Assembly (NCBI GenBank): GCA_031263495.1 | Contig: JAISFQ010000119.1 | Span: 1-43,952, forward strand | Length of the DNA: 43,952 nt | Source: Candidatus Nutricula glyptotermitis | GTDB lineage: Bacteria > Actinomycetota > Actinomycetes > Actinomycetales > Bifidobacteriaceae | Direction of reading: 5' to 3' | Part shown: piece after piece, positions 2,465-28,098 of the stretch | Position numbering within the stretch: position 1 is the first letter of the stretch | Layout: each line of letters begins with the position of its first letter | Program-made: the position numbers and the translations under genes | The notes under the pieces: generated by a model | Databases searched by the model: none | Seen by the model: only the letters and a program-made list of their open reading frames with translations | What the model was told of the DNA's origin: nothing

Positions 2465-2485
2465 ATATATTTGGGTGGAATATAT
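2465..2485 (+). promoter_or_regulatory. ATATATT-N7-AATATAT palindrome in the surface-protein leader
   Basis: Perfect 7-bp arms around TGGGTGG, 18 nt before the start codon. The leader of the Abi gene has the same arms around a near-identical core (7456-7477). It could be an operator or an RNA hairpin next to the ribosome-binding site. Confidence 0.4.
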
Positions 2486-2503
2486 AAAACGAAAGGATTT
2501 ACT

Positions 2504-5113
2504 ATGAAACGTAAGTTATGGGGATTAAAGACACTAGGTCTTGCTCTTTTTATTGGAGTTATAGGAGTTGTTGGAGTATTTGGCGCGAGTGAGGCGAGAG
2601 CGGATACTCCACCTGCGGGCGATTATATTGACGGCACGTTAAACGTTGCACCGTACTTTTATTCTATATATGCAGGACTTACAGGAGGGTCGGCTCTTAG
2701 CGCCAGTGCAACATCGATTAATCAAGGGTATAGATATGGGGATTGGCGGATTTGGGAACATAAAATGAAATTAGTTGATGCAAGTGGCAAAGTGTACAAG
2801 GTGGACGAATCTGGTAATGCCTATAATCTTAAGCCCTCTGTTTATACTCTTACTATATATGCAGGTCGCTATCCAGACTATCCCAATCAAACGATTAGCG
2901 AAACAGTCACTTTTAAGACTTCGTTGACAGTAGCAAAGAAAGATTACAAAAACAAGTTTACTGACTTAGGGAAAGTAACAAAAGAACGAAAGAGTTCAAT
3001 CAGGTGGATGTATCAATATGGAATTACAACAGGTGTAGATGGTAAAAACGTATACAATCCAAGTGGAGTAGTAAACAGAGGCGCAATGGCACAGTTCCTG
3101 CATAAATTATCAGCATCTGTAAAGACAAGTAAAACAGAAGTTAATCCGACTGATATTAGTAACTTAACTCAACCTGGAAGACAAGCAGATATAAAATGGC
3201 TAGCAAGTGAAGGAATCACTGTATTAGACAATGGAAAGTTTAACCCACAAAATCCAGTAAACAGAGGCGCAATGGCGGAGTTTATGTATAAAACAGCAGG
3301 AAGCCCTGCATATACACCAAGTAAGGCAGACCTTGCAAAGGTAAAGGACATAAAAAAAGTAAAGAACAATCCTGCTCGTCAAAAGGCAATCGCGTGGCTA
3401 GCAAAGAACAACATCACAGTATTAGATAAAAACGGCAACTTCAATCCACAAAACAACGTAAACCGTGGTTCTATGGCGCAATTCATGCAGAAACTTTACA
3501 AAAACGTAATGATAAAGCCTAACAAAACACAAAGCAAGGCAACTTTGATTGTGCCAAATAACTGCAAAAACAATCAGTGCACACTACTCAACAAAACATA
3601 TCCAGTAGGAACAGATACTCTGAAGCCAGAAGGTAAAGAGCCTGTATTGTTGTTAGGTTTGGACGGAGTTCAAAGAAGCAAAGTCAGCAGTTTAGTGTTT
3701 GACAATCATAAACCAACAACTTGTAAATCTCCATATTCAGGAAGTCCAATAGACGTAGGAGCAAGCAAAAAGAAACAAGTTATGGCATGCGTGTCTGCAG
3801 ACAAAACAAAAGTTCTAATTGGTGAGGACGCAGGAGTTAGAGTAAACGCTAATTCACAATATCTGTTTTATAATCTGCAACAAGCACCTACATTAACTGG
3901 TTTTGCAGATAAAACTCGTAATTGGGACAAGGCTCTCAACCTAACTGGGGTATTTCAAGATTATGGAAAGAACTCAACAAAAGGCACTATAAGCATACCA
4001 GAATTTCCATCGTTACTAGGTGCTCCTGAGGAGTCTGGGGGAGGAATCCGCGACAGTACTAACTGGTGGTATTATCCTGAACGAATGCGCATTCCAGAGC
4101 ACAACTTTTCGCATATGTTTGATGGCTTTGGGCAAAACGCAAAGAACGCCACAAGCATAACACTGCCAGAATTTCCACGTTTCTTCTCGGTAAGCGGCAC
4201 TAAGGTACAAGTTATTAATTTTGGCACAGTAGCCACTGACACAAGTTACATGTTTGCAAACTTCGCAAAAGGTGCTACACGCGTAACAAAAGTTACTATA
4301 CCAGAGTTCCCAATCACTAACGACGCCAGCAACAGTTTTGCTTACAGAACAGCGACAATGTCACATATGTTTGATGGCTTTGGCGAAGGAGCAACAAGTG
4401 CAACGGAGATTTCGCCAATCAATATTCCAGCTTCGTGGACAGAATCCGGGTCAGCGAACTTGTCTTACATGTTTGCCAATTTTGCTAAAGATGCAACGAG
4501 TGTAAAAAATGTTACTTTGCCTGAATTCAAGACTAAAAGTTCCTGGGGTACTTCAAACATGTCGCACATGTTTGAGAACTTTGGAAAAGGCGCAACGAGT
4601 GCTACGTCAGTTACCTTGCCTAAGGTTTATGAAGTTGGAACAAGTGACGCAAGTTATATGTTCGCAGGCTTTGGCGAAGGTGCAACGAACGCGACGAGGA
4701 TTTCGGTGGAGAGCGTGCCTACTGGTGCGTCTCCATATATGTTTGCGAACTTTGCCTATAACGCTACGAATGCTACGCAGATAGCCATTCCAGTTATGCG
4801 CTTCTCCGTCAAGGGGGTAGCCAGTGCAGAATCCATGTTTAGCGGATTTGCTGGCGGCACAGCAAAGATGACAAATGATATAGTATGGAGTGACCCTAGT
4901 TTGCAGTCAGGAGGGGTATTCACTGCACCTGCCGAGAATATGAGCAATATATTTACTAACGTAAATTGGAATAATCGTAAACTGTTGCTCGGTTATCACA
5001 GTGCCAATCCGCCCAAAACGAGCGGTGTTGTAGCGCTCCATGATTGGCTTAAAGTAAACGTCTTTGGCAATAGCGATAACAATCTAGGCTATACCGTTAC
5101 GACTACATACTAG
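2504..5113 (+). CDS. Secreted surface protein with SLH-like and BspA-like repeats
   Basis: 869 residues from ATG 2504, preceded by AAAGGA at 6 nt. An N-terminal signal peptide has KRK, a hydrophobic core and a probable cut after SEARA. Three repeats of about 50 residues follow (roughly residues 150-335), each ending in NRGxMAxFxxK, the form of SLH-like domains used by actinobacterial surface proteins to bind the wall. The C-terminal half has eight repeats with MFxxFxxxAxxAT (roughly residues 530-810), typical of the BspA/DUF285 adhesin-like fold. No LPXTG sorting motif or C-terminal membrane anchor is visible, so attachment would depend on the SLH-like part. Likely adhesin or host/cell-contact protein; ligand unknown. 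Confidence 0.8.
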   Translation: MKRKLWGLKTLGLALFIGVIGVVGVFGASEARADTPPAGDYIDGTLNVAPYFYSIYAGLTGGSALSASATSINQGYRYGDWRIWEHKMKLVDASGKVYKVDESGNAYNLKPSVYTLTIYAGRYPDYPNQTISETVTFKTSLTVAKKDYKNKFTDLGKVTKERKSSIRWMYQYGITTGVDGKNVYNPSGVVNRGAMAQFLHKLSASVKTSKTEVNPTDISNLTQPGRQADIKWLASEGITVLDNGKFNPQNPVNRGAMAEFMYKTAGSPAYTPSKADLAKVKDIKKVKNNPARQKAIAWLAKNNITVLDKNGNFNPQNNVNRGSMAQFMQKLYKNVMIKPNKTQSKATLIVPNNCKNNQCTLLNKTYPVGTDTLKPEGKEPVLLLGLDGVQRSKVSSLVFDNHKPTTCKSPYSGSPIDVGASKKKQVMACVSADKTKVLIGEDAGVRVNANSQYLFYNLQQAPTLTGFADKTRNWDKALNLTGVFQDYGKNSTKGTISIPEFPSLLGAPEESGGGIRDSTNWWYYPERMRIPEHNFSHMFDGFGQNAKNATSITLPEFPRFFSVSGTKVQVINFGTVATDTSYMFANFAKGATRVTKVTIPEFPITNDASNSFAYRTATMSHMFDGFGEGATSATEISPINIPASWTESGSANLSYMFANFAKDATSVKNVTLPEFKTKSSWGTSNMSHMFENFGKGATSATSVTLPKVYEVGTSDASYMFAGFGEGATNATRISVESVPTGASPYMFANFAYNATNATQIAIPVMRFSVKGVASAESMFSGFAGGTAKMTNDIVWSDPSLQSGGVFTAPAENMSNIFTNVNWNNRKLLLGYHSANPPKTSGVVALHDWLKVNVFGNSDNNLGYTVTTTY

Positions 5114-5136: not shown

Positions 5137-5172
5137 ACGACAAATCCTATAATCAATCATTGTCGTATGTTT
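5137..5172 (+). terminator. Candidate terminator after the surface-protein gene
   Basis: ACGACAA (5137-5143) pairs with TTGTCGT (5160-5166) and is followed by ATGTTTTTT. It overlaps the 3' end of the convergent GIY-YIG gene. The 16-nt loop makes it moderate. Confidence 0.45.
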
Positions 5173-5875
5173 TTTCGGACTCGAGTCTTTCTCGCCTATC
5201 ACTTATAGTCTCATCTTCGTATTTCCAATAAAGAGAGCCCTGCACTGAAGGCTTTTTCGACTTTTTCCATTTTTTTTGCAACAAAATCCCTGCTATCGCA
5301 GATAAGGTCGTTGGTTCATTGCTGTACGTAACGTGATTTGTACCATCTAAAACCTTACATGTTGTTTTGTCGTCGTACAGGAAAGTTAACTTTGCGCCAA
5401 TGGGAATTCCCAAATTAGCAAACGAGAAGTTTTTCCTAGTTGACCTTTGCGTTTGTTGCTCTTTAAGCTCTTCGTCGGTTGGTTCAACTACCTCTAGCTT
5501 GTCAGAGTCTCCTCGCAATTTTGCAATTCTATCAAGGACAGTGTATGCCTTTTCTGCCGACATTTGGAAAAATTCCCTTTTCCGCTCTCTACCACTATTC
5601 GGATTGGTCTCAACAGCATGTAGTTTATCATCAACTGCATCAATGATATCATGTATGTATCCTTCAACCTCTTTTGGGTTTTTCACTTTATATGTTGCAT
5701 ACGACCTAAAACATAACGGCATGTTTGCGGGGCTATTAAGCTCCTCTATGCGGTCTTTAATGTCGTTTTTATCCGTCATACCTATTTTAACCCATCCGTC
5801 CAAGCATGGATTCGTGAATATATACACAATTCCTCTGCTCGCGTTTTCTGATTTAGACTCTTTCTCTTTAGCCAT
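5153..5875 (-). CDS. GIY-YIG nuclease with C-terminal RAMA-like domain
   Basis: 240 residues from ATG 5875, which follows GAGAGG at 6 nt; a TTG 13 codons upstream is less likely. Residues 15-105 form a T5orf172-type GIY-YIG domain: GIVYIFTN gives the first motif, VKIGMT the second, followed by the Arg of IKDRIEELNS and the Glu of NPKEVEGYIH. Residues about 158-225 (IGAKLTFLYDDK through SLYWKYE) resemble the RAMA domain, thought to read modified bases or serve restriction-like systems. Together these suggest a DNA-acting defence effector. A ncRNA-terminator-promoter cassette nearly identical to the one before the Abi gene lies upstream (5997-6170), tying both genes to the same control. Target and activity are inferred. 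Confidence 0.75.
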   Translation of the reverse strand: MAKEKESKSENASRGIVYIFTNPCLDGWVKIGMTDKNDIKDRIEELNSPANMPLCFRSYATYKVKNPKEVEGYIHDIIDAVDDKLHAVETNPNSGRERKREFFQMSAEKAYTVLDRIAKLRGDSDKLEVVEPTDEELKEQQTQRSTRKNFSFANLGIPIGAKLTFLYDDKTTCKVLDGTNHVTYSNEPTTLSAIAGILLQKKWKKSKKPSVQGSLYWKYEDETISDRRERLESEKTYDND

Positions 5876-5891
5876 AATCATCCTCTCTACA

Positions 5892-5913: not shown

Positions 5914-5996
5914 AACTCTATATATTACCCCACTACTATACCTTCTTTTGCAATATCTAGCGCGACTTAATCATCGCATTAAACTTTACAGTTAAA

Positions 5997-6026
5997 ATTG
6001 TATCATTAAATGAAAACGTTAAACAA
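5997..6026 (-). promoter_or_regulatory. mRNA promoter of the GIY-YIG gene
   Basis: Minus strand TTGTTT (6021-6026), 18-nt spacer, TACAAT (5997-6002). It lies just past the terminator of the upstream ncRNA; its position in the Abi cassette is identical. Confidence 0.6.
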
Positions 6027-6044
6027 TAGCAAAAAATAGAGAAC

Positions 6045-6158
6045 AAAAAAAGAGCCCTCCCAACCTCTTACGAGGTCGGAGGACTTAAACTGAACCCCCA
6101 AAATTGCGCTTAAACTCGAATCTTACGATTCTAGCCCATAGGCGTGGGGGCTACCGAT
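6045..6158 (-). ncRNA. Small structured RNA, copy 1 (abiF-RNA-like)
   Basis: On the minus strand an extended -10 (TGCTAAAAT, 6165-6170) is followed by a predicted RNA of about 114 nt. It has a UAGCCC/GGGCUA stem, a GAAUC-GUAA-GAUUC hairpin and a strong terminator stem (6053-6085) ending in seven U residues (6045-6051). A GGGGG run and the CCCCC in the first loop could form a pseudoknot; the same run can also pair with the left arm of the terminator. Copy 2 (7560-7672) is almost identical. Position and shape recall the published abiF RNA motif, but here the following gene is a GIY-YIG protein. No consensus -35 is present in this copy. Confidence 0.65.
6053..6085 (-). terminator. Intrinsic terminator of ncRNA copy 1
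   Basis: AGTCCTCC plus ACCTC pair with GAGGT plus GGAGGGCT around GTAA with one bulge, then TTTTTTT on the minus strand. Confidence 0.8.
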
Positions 6159-6235
6159 AGTACTATTTTAGCATGCTTCCGATTTTGATTGTTTAACATT
6201 TGATTGTTTAACAGTTGTTACAGGCGAATAGTGCC

Positions 6236-6273
6236 TTAAAAATTATAACCCCTAGCCCTTGTGGGGCTAGGGG
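6236..6273 (-). terminator. Intrinsic terminator of the small RNA
   Basis: CCCCTAGCCC pairs with GGGCTAGGGG around a short loop on the minus strand, followed by TTATAATTTTT. Confidence 0.7.
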
Positions 6274-6374
6274 AGTAAATCTCTAACAACCGTACGGAAT
6301 TAGAGACTGCGCGTCTCCGTAATGAGCATTCACGTAAAGAAATCCCTACATGACTAAGCCGGTGACGACTGTAC
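6236..6374 (-). ncRNA. Small-RNA candidate between the two defence genes
   Basis: Consensus promoter (6381-6410) and a strong terminator hairpin (6248-6273) delimit a transcript of about 140 nt with no good ORF. It contains TACG-GAGAC-gcgca-GUCUC ending in CGUA, and an alternative 8-bp pairing of GUCUCUAA with UUAGAGAU, so two structures exclude each other. I do not recognise a known family: it does not match SRP RNA, 6S, tmRNA or RNase P landmarks. It starts just past the Abi stop codon. Confidence 0.6.
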
Positions 6375-6380
6375 AATATA

Positions 6381-6410
6381 ATTATAGCATGGCTTCAGAA
6401 CATATGTCAA
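6381..6410 (-). promoter_or_regulatory. Consensus promoter of the small RNA
   Basis: TTGACA (6405-6410), 18-nt spacer, TATAAT (6381-6386). One of the best promoter matches in the window. Confidence 0.8.
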
Positions 6411-6420
6411 TACCTCAAAA

Positions 6421-7431
6421 TCAATTGTTACGATTGTTACGTTTTTTATTCTTTTCCCTGCTTGTGCGACTGCCATTCCATCCAACTTTTCCGCGTGTGG
6501 GACTGTATAGTCCATTTTTGAATGCTTTATTGCTGTCAATTAATGCAAAAATATGCTCTGAGTAAAGGCTATTTCCTTCAATCTCGTCAACCACCATAGC
6601 CAAGAGGCATATTATGCGAATAACACTGTTTTCGCTTGGAAAATTACTCTCTCCGTTATTGTCGTGCGGAAAATACTTTTCGATTACACCTCTTGAGAGT
6701 GAAGGGGATGTTTTCATAAGCCTATTCCATATTCTTGAATGATGTGCACAGAGATTTCGCAGGATAGAAAACACCTTAAGTGTTGCGATAAATCGGTCGT
6801 TACTACCGAATATTTTACGCGCTTCAGTAGATTGATTGTCGCTATCGTTTATGTCAAAAGAGTCGGTGATGTCCTTTTTGCAATTAAAATTATTGCAGTA
6901 TTCATACATGGTCACTATTGTGTCAAATGTAAGTATTTCGACTGCCGCATAAACTGGAACTCTTTCGTTTTTGTTTTTAAAGTGCAACATGCATGGTTCA
7001 TCTGAACGTTCAATTTGGGAGTAGATTCTATTGAGTAATCTATATGAGGACGATATTTTATGTTTTGCTTTACTGCCAGAGGGTAAATAAGTATCTAAAT
7101 TCAAATATCCGTAATCCCCAAAAGTATGTACAAATTGGTAAGCCAAACTTGCTCTAAATGCAATCTCGAAAATCTGTATTCCCTCAAATATTATACGACG
7201 TAACTCTTTGTCTAATTTAATAAGTTTTATAATGGTTGCAATGTCGGCATTTTTATAAAACGTATTGTTGCCACTCAATGGGTCGACTTGATAATATCTT
7301 GCATACCCTGAAAAACGGTAATAGTTTATTTCGTACAGGTACTTTGCAACATCTACGTCTGTTTTATTCTTTAAGCCACGCTCTCGCAGCATCTCCACCA
7401 TTTCTGGTATAGTTTTCGGCTCTTTACTCAT
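6421..7431 (-). CDS. Abi_2 family abortive-infection protein (AbiF/AbiD type, HEPN RNase)
   Basis: 336 residues from ATG 7431, preceded by GAGAGGG at 6 nt. It matches the Abi_2 family: N-terminal LRERGLKNKTD and a YEINYYRFSGY segment, then an all-helical body with the HEPN catalytic motif R225-N-L-C-A-H230 (R-X4-H) in ILRNLCAHHSRIWNR. HEPN proteins of this family act as RNases that stop growth on phage infection and are considered relatives of Cas13. The ncRNA candidate immediately upstream (7560-7672) fits the known link between abiF genes and a structured RNA, which probably neutralises the protein. Full-length with the motif intact. Trigger and RNA target are unknown. Confidence 0.85.
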   Translation of the reverse strand: MSKEPKTIPEMVEMLRERGLKNKTDVDVAKYLYEINYYRFSGYARYYQVDPLSGNNTFYKNADIATIIKLIKLDKELRRIIFEGIQIFEIAFRASLAYQFVHTFGDYGYLNLDTYLPSGSKAKHKISSSYRLLNRIYSQIERSDEPCMLHFKNKNERVPVYAAVEILTFDTIVTMYEYCNNFNCKKDITDSFDINDSDNQSTEARKIFGSNDRFIATLKVFSILRNLCAHHSRIWNRLMKTSPSLSRGVIEKYFPHDNNGESNFPSENSVIRIICLLAMVVDEIEGNSLYSEHIFALIDSNKAFKNGLYSPTRGKVGWNGSRTSREKNKKRNNRNN

Positions 7432-7455
7432 TCGCAACCCTCTCTTTACTGCTTC

Positions 7456-7477
7456 ATATATTCCACCACTAATATAT
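7456..7477 (-). promoter_or_regulatory. ATATATT-N8-AATATAT palindrome in the Abi leader
   Basis: Perfect 7-bp arms around AGTGGTGG, about 25 nt before the start codon. Compare 2465-2485 in front of the surface-protein gene. A diverged version also lies in the GIY-YIG leader. Confidence 0.4.
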
Positions 7478-7511
7478 CCTCGTTTATGCGCACGTAAGGC
7501 GCACAGTTAAA

Positions 7512-7541
7512 ATTGTATCATTAAATGGAAACGTTAAACAA
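7512..7541 (-). promoter_or_regulatory. mRNA promoter of the Abi gene
   Basis: Minus strand TTGTTT (7536-7541), 18-nt spacer, TACAAT (7512-7517); the leader would be about 75 nt. Confidence 0.6.
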
Positions 7542-7559
7542 TAGCGGAAAATAGAGAAC

Positions 7560-7672
7560 AAAAAAAGAGCCCTCCCAACCTCTTACGAGGTCGGAGGACT
7601 TAAACTGAACCTCCAAAATTGCGCGTAAACCGAATCTTACGATTCTAGCCCATAGGCGTGGGGGCTACCGAT
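7560..7672 (-). ncRNA. Small structured RNA, copy 2 (abiF-RNA-like)
   Basis: Promoter CTGACA, 18 nt, TAAAAT (7679-7684) with a TG extension, then about 113 nt ending in seven U residues (7560-7566). Elements in order: UAGCCC/GGGCUA stem, GAAUC-GUAA-GAUUC hairpin, GGAGG run, terminator stem (7568-7600). The GGAGG run can pair with CCUCC of the terminator arm or, with one mismatch, with CCCCC in the first loop. It lies directly before the Abi gene, as the published abiF RNA motif does, so a cognate RNA antitoxin is the likeliest role. Confidence 0.72.
7568..7600 (-). terminator. Intrinsic terminator of ncRNA copy 2
   Basis: Same stem as at 6053-6085 with a GTAA loop, followed by TTTTTTT on the minus strand. 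Confidence 0.8.
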
Positions 7673-7752
7673 AGTACTATTTTAGCATGCTTCCGATTTG
7701 AGTGTCAGAATTTGGCTGTTTACATGAAATGCCTTAAAAGTCGGCTATCGCC

Positions 7753-8225
7753 TTGTGCCCGATGACTTGAGCATTGCTTGGATTTTTCAGTATGAAAAAT
7801 CCAAGCCTCTGCTGTGAAGTTACTTTTTGTTTAAGAGTTACTCTGCAACAGAGTGGCTTGGCAAGACGCAGCCAAGCCTAAGCGCAACTTTCAAAAGAAC
7901 GAGCGTAAGCGAAGTTGTTTTGAAAAGTTGCGCGGGTAAAAGCGTGAGCGAAGCGAACTCCGATTCGTACGTAACGAGCAGTACTCTTAACGCCACGCAG
8001 TACTTCTATTCTGAATTCCGCACCGCGAAACGAAGTGTAGCGTGATGCGGAATCTTAAAATAGAGTATGTGCCGTCAGGCGAACGCGATTTAATTGCATT
8101 GCTACGCAATAGGGTCGAATGCTCATTCGCATTCTCCTTTCAAGACCCCGCATCGGAGTGTGGGGTTCTGAGTGGGAGTTGTACTTGGTTCTGAGGTGGA
8201 GTAGTGCGGAATTCTGAGGTGAAGT
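7753..8225 (+). repeat. Hairpin-chain repeat, copy B
   Basis: Stem 1 CTTGGATTTTTCA (7777-7789) pairs with 7793-7805; stem 2 GGCTTGGC (7855-7862) with 7871-7878; stem 3 GCGCAACTTTCAAAA (7882-7896) with 7918-7933; then the CCGCA/TGCGG and CCCCGC/GTGGGG elements. It ends about 140 bp before tRNA-Gln. No gene is seen in it; ORFs here are by-products of the repeat. Confidence 0.88.
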
Positions 8226-8365
8226 ATGAGCGAATGCGAAGTTGTTTTGGAAGTTCAGGGCAAAAAAGGTGCTCAGATGGCAAAAAAATATGTTACAAAG
8301 CGGGGAGTGAAACCTCGTTTGCACTTTACTCGCAATTCGTGTAAACTTAAATATGTAAGACACAT

Positions 8366-27087: not shown

Positions 27088-28098
27088 TTACTTGTTGCCT
27101 ATCTGCTTGTTAATCTGTCGATCAAAGTCTGAAATTATCTTTTGCGTTTTGTTAAATTCATCGTACTCACTTTCAGCTTTTTGACTGGCGTTTTTACGTG
27201 ATATAGTTCCTTTTCCTTTCAGTATTTTATATTTTCTAAACTCCAAAAAGGCATTAATGCTTGTGTTGAAATCGTCCATTGTAAAAGAGTGCTCTTCTTC
27301 AATCAAATCTTCAATATAATCAAAAAACCCAGTCACGCTTCTTTCAAGTCTGCGAATCTGTTGCTCGTCAAGATAGTTTTTGGCGATAGTAACATCAGGT
27401 TTTAAGATTCTGCCATCTGGCGAGTTTTTCCAAGTCATCAACCCCATGTTCTCTTTGCTTTTATCAGCCGAAGCGTATACTATTTCAGGCGCGGTTTTGC
27501 CTGTAATCGCATAATGAAACTTATTTTGAATAGTAGCATAAAATTCGCGGGTTATAGGACTGTTTTTGTCATAATCTATTGAGCATTCAGCAAAAATATC
27601 GGTAATTTGTTGCCATATTCTTCTTTCACTTGCCCGAATAGACCTAACGCGCTCAAGAAGTTCTCGGAAATAATCTTTCCCAAAAACTGTTTCGCCAAGT
27701 TTCAAGCGTTCATCATCAAGCACGAAACCTTTTTGAATAAACTCTTTCAAAACCGAAGTTGCCCAAATACGAAACTTAGTCGCTTTCAATGAATTTACGC
27801 GATAACCAACAGAAATCACAGCATCTAAATTGTAGAGATTTACGTCGTTTGTTTGTAGTTTACTCTTAATTGCCCCATGTCGAGTGGTTGTTTCCATTTT
27901 GGAAATAACCACTTTTTCGTCAAGTTCTCCGTCCTCAAATATATTAGATAAATGTTTGCTAATTGCGGACACTCCGACCCCAAACAGTTCAGACATTGCT
28001 TTTTGCGTTACCCAAATTGTACCTTTATCGACAGCGACATTGATAGAAGCCTCATTATCGGGAAGTTGGTACAGAACGTAAGTTATTTCTTTACTCAT
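27088..28098 (-). CDS. RhuM family protein
   Basis: 336 residues. N-terminal region (ITYVLYQLPDNEASINVAVDKGTIWVTQKAMSELFGV in short pieces) with a helix-turn-helix-like part VGVSAISKHLSNIF, then NLDAVISVGYRVNSLKATKFRIWAT, the core of the RhuM/KilA-N-like family, and a helical C-terminal region. RhuM genes occur in pathogenicity islands, phages and restriction loci; the molecular role is unknown. Its ATG overlaps the stop of the preceding gene (ATGA). Confidence 0.9.
   Translation of the reverse strand: MSKEITYVLYQLPDNEASINVAVDKGTIWVTQKAMSELFGVGVSAISKHLSNIFEDGELDEKVVISKMETTTRHGAIKSKLQTNDVNLYNLDAVISVGYRVNSLKATKFRIWATSVLKEFIQKGFVLDDERLKLGETVFGKDYFRELLERVRSIRASERRIWQQITDIFAECSIDYDKNSPITREFYATIQNKFHYAITGKTAPEIVYASADKSKENMGLMTWKNSPDGRILKPDVTIAKNYLDEQQIRRLERSVTGFFDYIEDLIEEEHSFTMDDFNTSINAFLEFRKYKILKGKGTISRKNASQKAESEYDEFNKTQKIISDFDRQINKQIGNK

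Follow-up and report, generated by a model that had tools for sequence, protein, structure and literature searches.

Two genes in this DNA, one for an Abi_2 (AbiF-type) HEPN protein and one for a GIY-YIG nuclease, are each preceded by nearly the same stretch of predicted RNA and terminator. What kind of RNA is this, and does it control one gene, both or neither? The locus was analysed within a window of 43,952 nucleotides (the whole stretch of DNA), to which all coordinates refer. The source genome is fragmentary (157 contigs, 77% complete, 1.55 Mb) and has no close relative, and all evidence on the locus comes from this one genome. Read along the minus strand, the order is RNA copy 2, the Abi_2 gene, a third RNA gene, RNA copy 1 and the GIY-YIG gene. 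The features are as follows.

5153..5881, minus strand: T5orf172 GIY-YIG nuclease with a likely RAMA-like C-terminus (likely start ATG 5875, 5881 possible; PF10544, E 4.6e-14)
5997..6026, minus strand: weak promoter-like site TTGTTT-18-TACAAT before the GIY-YIG gene (from sequence)
6053..6085, minus strand: predicted intrinsic terminator hairpin of copy 1, then U7 (from the fold; identical to copy 2)
6089..6159, minus strand: abiF-like RNA motif, copy 1, upstream of the GIY-YIG gene (full RNA about 6046-6160; covariance model R1, 22.4 bits, E 3.2e-4)
6165..6173, minus strand: extended -10 (TGCTAAAAT) of RNA copy 1 (from sequence)
6240..6374, minus strand: third putative RNA gene, between the Abi_2 gene and copy 1, unrelated to abiF (terminator stem 6249-6273)
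6381..6410, minus strand: predicted sigma-70 promoter of the third RNA, TTGACA-18-TGcTATAAT (12/12 consensus positions)
6421..7431, minus strand: Abi_2/AbiF HEPN protein (ATG 7431, RBS GAGAGG; PF07751, E 4.7e-41)
6742..6759, minus strand: HEPN catalytic motif RNLCAH (R-N-x-x-x-H; R225, N226, C228 and H230 invariant in eight homologues)
7512..7541, minus strand: weak promoter-like site TTGTTT-18-TACAAT before the Abi_2 gene (from sequence, 8/12; scan threshold 9/12)
7568..7600, minus strand: predicted intrinsic terminator hairpin of copy 2, then U7 (from the fold, about -23 kcal/mol)
7604..7673, minus strand: abiF-like RNA motif, copy 2, upstream of the Abi_2 gene (full RNA about 7561-7674; R1, 19.9 bits, E 1.7e-3)
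7679..7708, minus strand: promoter-like site of RNA copy 2, CTGACA-18-TGcTAAAAT (10/12 consensus matches)

The duplication, first noticed in a sequence-only reading as about 190 bp repeated nearly identically before the two genes, is real. It is a direct repeat of about 197 bp with both copies on the minus strand (copy 1, 5988-6185; copy 2, 7503-7699); the copies share 97% identity and are set apart by five substitutions and a one-base indel. When the source genome (1.55 Mb) was searched with the repeat, the two copies were the only strong matches (E 1e-103 and 1e-90); a search for the cassette in viral contigs and plasmids gave no match. Misassembly was considered as the source of the repeat and is unlikely, given the six differences between the copies and their spacing of 1.5 kb within a single 44-kb contig. 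The duplicated unit is longer than 190 bp, since weaker similarity extends through the leaders toward both start codons (local alignment score 41; one of 1000 shuffles as high). Upstream of the repeat the copies perhaps share further similarity (27 of 1000 shuffles scoring as well). That the whole cassette is so well conserved could reflect a recent duplication event or gene conversion instead of selection.

The product of the gene after copy 2 was confirmed as an AbiF-family HEPN protein in which the RNLCAH motif is intact. Its Abi_2 domain scored 141.6 bits against a cut-off of 25.6, and the PADLOC label was AbiD. A solved relative, PDB entry 8vz6 ('Abi family protein'), belongs to the same protein family by sequence (E 3.8e-14), but it is distant and the match says nothing on the GIY-YIG neighbour.

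The protein encoded after copy 1 had been described as GIY-YIG/RAMA-like. Its GIY-YIG part was supported by profile and has conserved active-site residues (Y21, K33-I-G35, R45, H78 and R103-E-F-F), and the protein was assigned by PADLOC to the candidate defence family PDC-S57 (E 2.5e-59), present in 3/396 genomes of the phylum, the source genome counted. The RAMA part was supported by fold but not by Pfam, which gave no RAMA match. Using an AlphaFold model (mean pLDDT 80), Foldseek returned CcrM (6pbd; probability 1.00, E 0.016), Slx1 (probability 0.99) and MPND in complex with DNA (7ydw; probability 0.66, E 0.92), all with E-values above 0.01. CcrM has a C-terminal domain related to RAMA, and the DNA-binding part of MPND is a RAMA domain. 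Judged from the predicted structure, the C-terminus is likely to be RAMA-like. Searches for sequence relatives in 150 other family genomes and in viral contigs were negative. From CMoRE the protein differs in that its C-terminus resembles CcrM and the RAMA domain of MPND, and in having no sequence match to PDB chains at E<=1. What it appears to share with that enzyme, a type IV GIY-YIG restriction endonuclease, is the layout of a single protein with an N-terminal GIY-YIG domain and a C-terminal modification-sensing domain (PMC12923530).

For each copy of the repeat, an RNA of about 110 nt with a strong terminator of its own was predicted, in agreement with the earlier estimate of about 113 nt. 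The same reading had taken the RNA to be of the abiF type and had proposed a check with the Rfam abiF model. With that model (RF03085; gathering score 37 bits) neither copy was matched, either in the window at E<=5 or in the source genome at E<=1, and the sole match in an Rfam scan of the window at the gathering threshold was a tRNA. BTnc049, another Rfam family, was rejected for the cassette (E 0.5, far under its gathering score, with the match resting on the terminator). Rfam probably misses both copies because the P2 loop is expanded and the sequence generally divergent. Across the family RF03085 gave scores above the cut-off in 8/151 genomes and matches at E<=1 in 43, and many abiF RNAs upstream of Abi_2 genes in the family likewise fall under the cut-off.

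A strict IUPAC pattern derived from the family consensus had no match in the window. Because one P1 position of this pattern is absent there, a covariance model (R1) was used. It was built from 24 abiF RNAs from other genomes of the same family, the window sequences being left out, and its alignment showed covariation (91% of cells paired; 28 double-change cells versus 8.4 in shuffles). On the 44-kb window with filters off, the two copies ranked first with 22.4 and 19.9 bits, ahead of a next hit at 10.4 bits; both lay on the expected strand and covered the full model (positions 1 to 51). They were still first on the whole 1.55-Mb genome, with E-values of only 0.011 and 0.059. Both copies have kept the P1 stem, the unpaired A, the P2 stem and the GCCU/GCNCAA core of RF03085. 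They differ from that motif in lying below Rfam detection and in a P2 loop of about 32 nt versus 11 nt in the canonical form, the expansion of about 20 nt carrying its own hairpin (GAAUC-GUAA-GAUUC); a milder P2 loop expansion (9 nt) was seen at another locus (L082). A loop of this length could change AbiF binding. As to position, copy 2 lies directly upstream of the Abi_2 gene, the arrangement seen in 13/30 abiF RNA loci of the same family; copy 1 lies upstream of the GIY-YIG gene instead. Since the copies fall below the Rfam threshold and depart from the canonical loop length, they were filed as a divergent abiF homologue outside RF03085. With this qualification, sequence comparison identifies both as abiF-type RNAs.

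The two copies are not predicted to fold equally well. Copy 1 has an intact P1 stem (AGCCCCC/GGGGGUU) with a predicted pairing probability of 0.9998, and its predicted fold has a z-score of -4.2. In copy 2 one P1 G is changed to A, giving a C-A mismatch (GGAGG) and a P1 pairing probability of 0.75, and a rival hairpin (UAGCCC/GGGCUA; probability 0.19) falls short of the best fold by only 0.3 kcal/mol. In these predictions the abiF form is much more secure for copy 1 than for copy 2. In Clostridioides difficile, removal of one stem base pair in both abiF motifs abolished neutralisation of AbiF, whereas compensated changes did not (PMC12373285). By analogy with this result, the copy before the nuclease gene may be the better antitoxin because its P1 stem is intact.

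The predicted terminators, each a 14-bp GC-rich stem followed by U7, show no difference between copies. RNA copy 1 is without a good -35 element because the -35 position falls outside the repeat. The TTGTTT-18-TACAAT site put forward earlier as a promoter for each gene is present in both copies; as it matches the consensus at just 8/12 positions, it constitutes weak promoter evidence.

Between the Abi_2 gene and copy 1 lies the putative third RNA gene, a structured sequence of about 130 nt followed by a terminator (predicted fold of 6200-6300, z -5.7). It had no Rfam match, searches of 60 family genomes and of plasmids gave no convincing relative, and its short matches in other genomes were mostly coding-DNA-like by eye. 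A tracrRNA or another known RNA was considered and found no support, there being no Rfam match and no repeats in the contig (C78) that holds its sole similarity in the source genome. Predicted pairing with the abiF RNAs was no better than in shuffles. Elsewhere in the window, about 600 bp between copy 2 and tRNA-Gln (7740-8360) are apparently non-coding and contain short degenerate repeats, and an 880-aa SLH-domain protein with seven degenerate repeats of about 50 nt (2471-5113, plus strand) adjoins the defence genes. A second defence cluster on the same contig (16786-22744, plus strand) comprises a Type III-like methyltransferase and a ResIII helicase, then an AbiEi-like/AbiEii toxin-antitoxin pair. 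A RhuM-family gene (PF13310, E 1.8e-101) lies at 27088-28098 on the minus strand.

Whether the RNA also controls the nuclease was addressed by comparison of loci. The eight GIY-YIG homologue loci available (L048-L053, L085, L086) are all distant, the four from genome contigs being 35-37% identical. The cassette, whose conservation before such homologues had been suggested as a check, was absent at 8/8 of these distant loci: no adjacent abiF-like RNA was found (best match 12.4 bits, E 0.27, away from the gene), and no Abi_2 gene was present in the flanks examined, which were short on one side for some. Conversely, 29 other Abi_2 loci of the family lacked this GIY-YIG gene in their 1.5-kb flanks. 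Among all loci compared, an Abi_2 protein and this GIY-YIG protein occurred together only in the window. The pairing looks lineage-specific because the eight distant homologues have neither abiF RNA nor Abi_2; given the distance of the homologues and the limited flanks, a lineage-specific RNA control of the nuclease is possible.

With moderate confidence, we favour the reading of an AbiF RNA-toxin module with a duplicated regulatory region next to a restriction nuclease gene, in which the RNA would restrain Abi_2 and copy 1 would act in trans. The whole upstream regulatory region (RNA, terminator and leader) has been duplicated, placing the second copy between the toxin gene and the nuclease gene. 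Both RNA copies would be transcribed and end at their own hairpins, and both would bind and restrain the Abi_2 dimer, as RCd22 does AbiF in C. difficile. Copy 1, with its intact P1 stem, would probably be the better antitoxin, supplied in trans, while copy 2 would be partly misfolded. The nuclease gene would be expressed independently, by terminator readthrough or from the weak promoter, and its product would probably cut DNA according to DNA modification.

The closest described system is RCd22-AbiF of C. difficile phi027, in which an Abi_2 HEPN protein with R-N-x-x-x-H likewise follows an abiF RNA of about 100-130 nt and a terminator. Whether it acts in cis or in trans, that RNA neutralises AbiF (PMC12373285). 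RCd22 has two canonical motifs per RNA, whereas the window RNA has one loop-expanded motif and a terminator hairpin, a second, degenerate motif being merely hinted at (R1, 7.1 bits). The window RNA differs further in being duplicated, with the second copy preceding a nuclease gene.

Alternatively, copy 1 could have arisen by a recent tandem duplication of the abiF RNA with its leader and have no separate function, being for instance a remnant from the replacement of a second Abi_2 gene by the nuclease gene. Homology across the RNA and the leader toward the start codons is what copying of a whole regulatory region would produce, and the GIY-YIG homologues occur without the cassette. Solitary abiF RNAs are moreover common in the family: 17/30 abiF RNA loci have no Abi_2 gene within about 1.5 kb (L059-L071, L073, L078, L081, L084), with varied neighbour genes and several RNAs under the Rfam cut-off. 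Because abiF RNAs away from Abi_2 are so common, one standing before another gene is not by itself evidence of control. Against a functionless duplicate, the cassette still shows 97% identity although indels and other changes separate the two leaders, and P1 is better kept in copy 1 than in copy 2, which suggests some constraint on copy 1. We regard passive duplication as unlikely, though worth serious attention.

It is also conceivable that each copy is a cis attenuator only, a leader that terminates most transcription so that readthrough makes the gene product, with no protein bound. In both copies a strong terminator separates the RNA from the gene, as would suit this role, and RCd22 itself lowers downstream expression by premature termination (PMC12373285). 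However, conservation of the abiF core and of the P1 and P2 stems goes further than termination would require, the terminator here forms its own hairpin, and the C. difficile RNA acts in trans as well; we find an attenuator alone improbable.

The model originally proposed, in which a common abiF-type RNA controls both effectors as a paired RNase/DNase defence unit, draws on the recurrence of RNA, terminator and weak promoter, with a related leader, ahead of both genes, and on the membership of both genes in known or candidate defence families. The comparison did not support it, no second example being found at the eight GIY-YIG homologue loci (0/8) or the 29 other Abi_2 loci (0/29), and a literature search found no RNA-controlled GIY-YIG/RAMA protein. 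We consider it very doubtful.

There is a similarly slim chance that the locus is a self-guarding pair, in which the intact antitoxin RNA sits in the nuclease transcription unit and the RNA-antitoxin module addicts the cell to the DNA-restriction gene; loss of the nuclease locus would then remove the better antitoxin and activate Abi_2. In CreTA-type guards of CRISPR-Cas, a small-RNA antitoxin is tied to a defence locus. An antitoxin RNA linked to the present locus could similarly make its loss toxic, but the RNA, the toxin and the defence genes are others, and a guard role in the window is hypothetical.

The locus also drew attention to a broader pattern, in which many abiF RNAs lie apart from any toxin gene. 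In IMG/VR, 33 viral contigs (L087-L119) carried the exact canonical abiF core, with Abi_2 in 0/33 records, many of which may be fragments. None of the 28 distinct viral cores lay within an ATG-started ORF of at least 100 aa, and the P1 stems showed covariation, the flanks pairing better with their own partner (mean -6.2 kcal/mol) than when swapped (-4.1 kcal/mol; lowest of 50 swaps -4.8). An abiF sRNA is on record from one cyanophage, with no function tested (PMC9964418). The viral RNAs are candidate phage-borne solitary abiF RNAs, possibly decoys against AbiF; for the viral and the bacterial toxin-less abiF RNAs alike, a role as RNA decoys or as solitary antitoxins would be consistent with the lack of a neighbouring toxin gene. 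AbiF-RNA modules have been proposed as ancestors of Cas13. A duplicated, loop-expanded abiF RNA beside another effector indicates that the RNA can be copied into new contexts, and the duplication gives a simple test of cis versus trans action.
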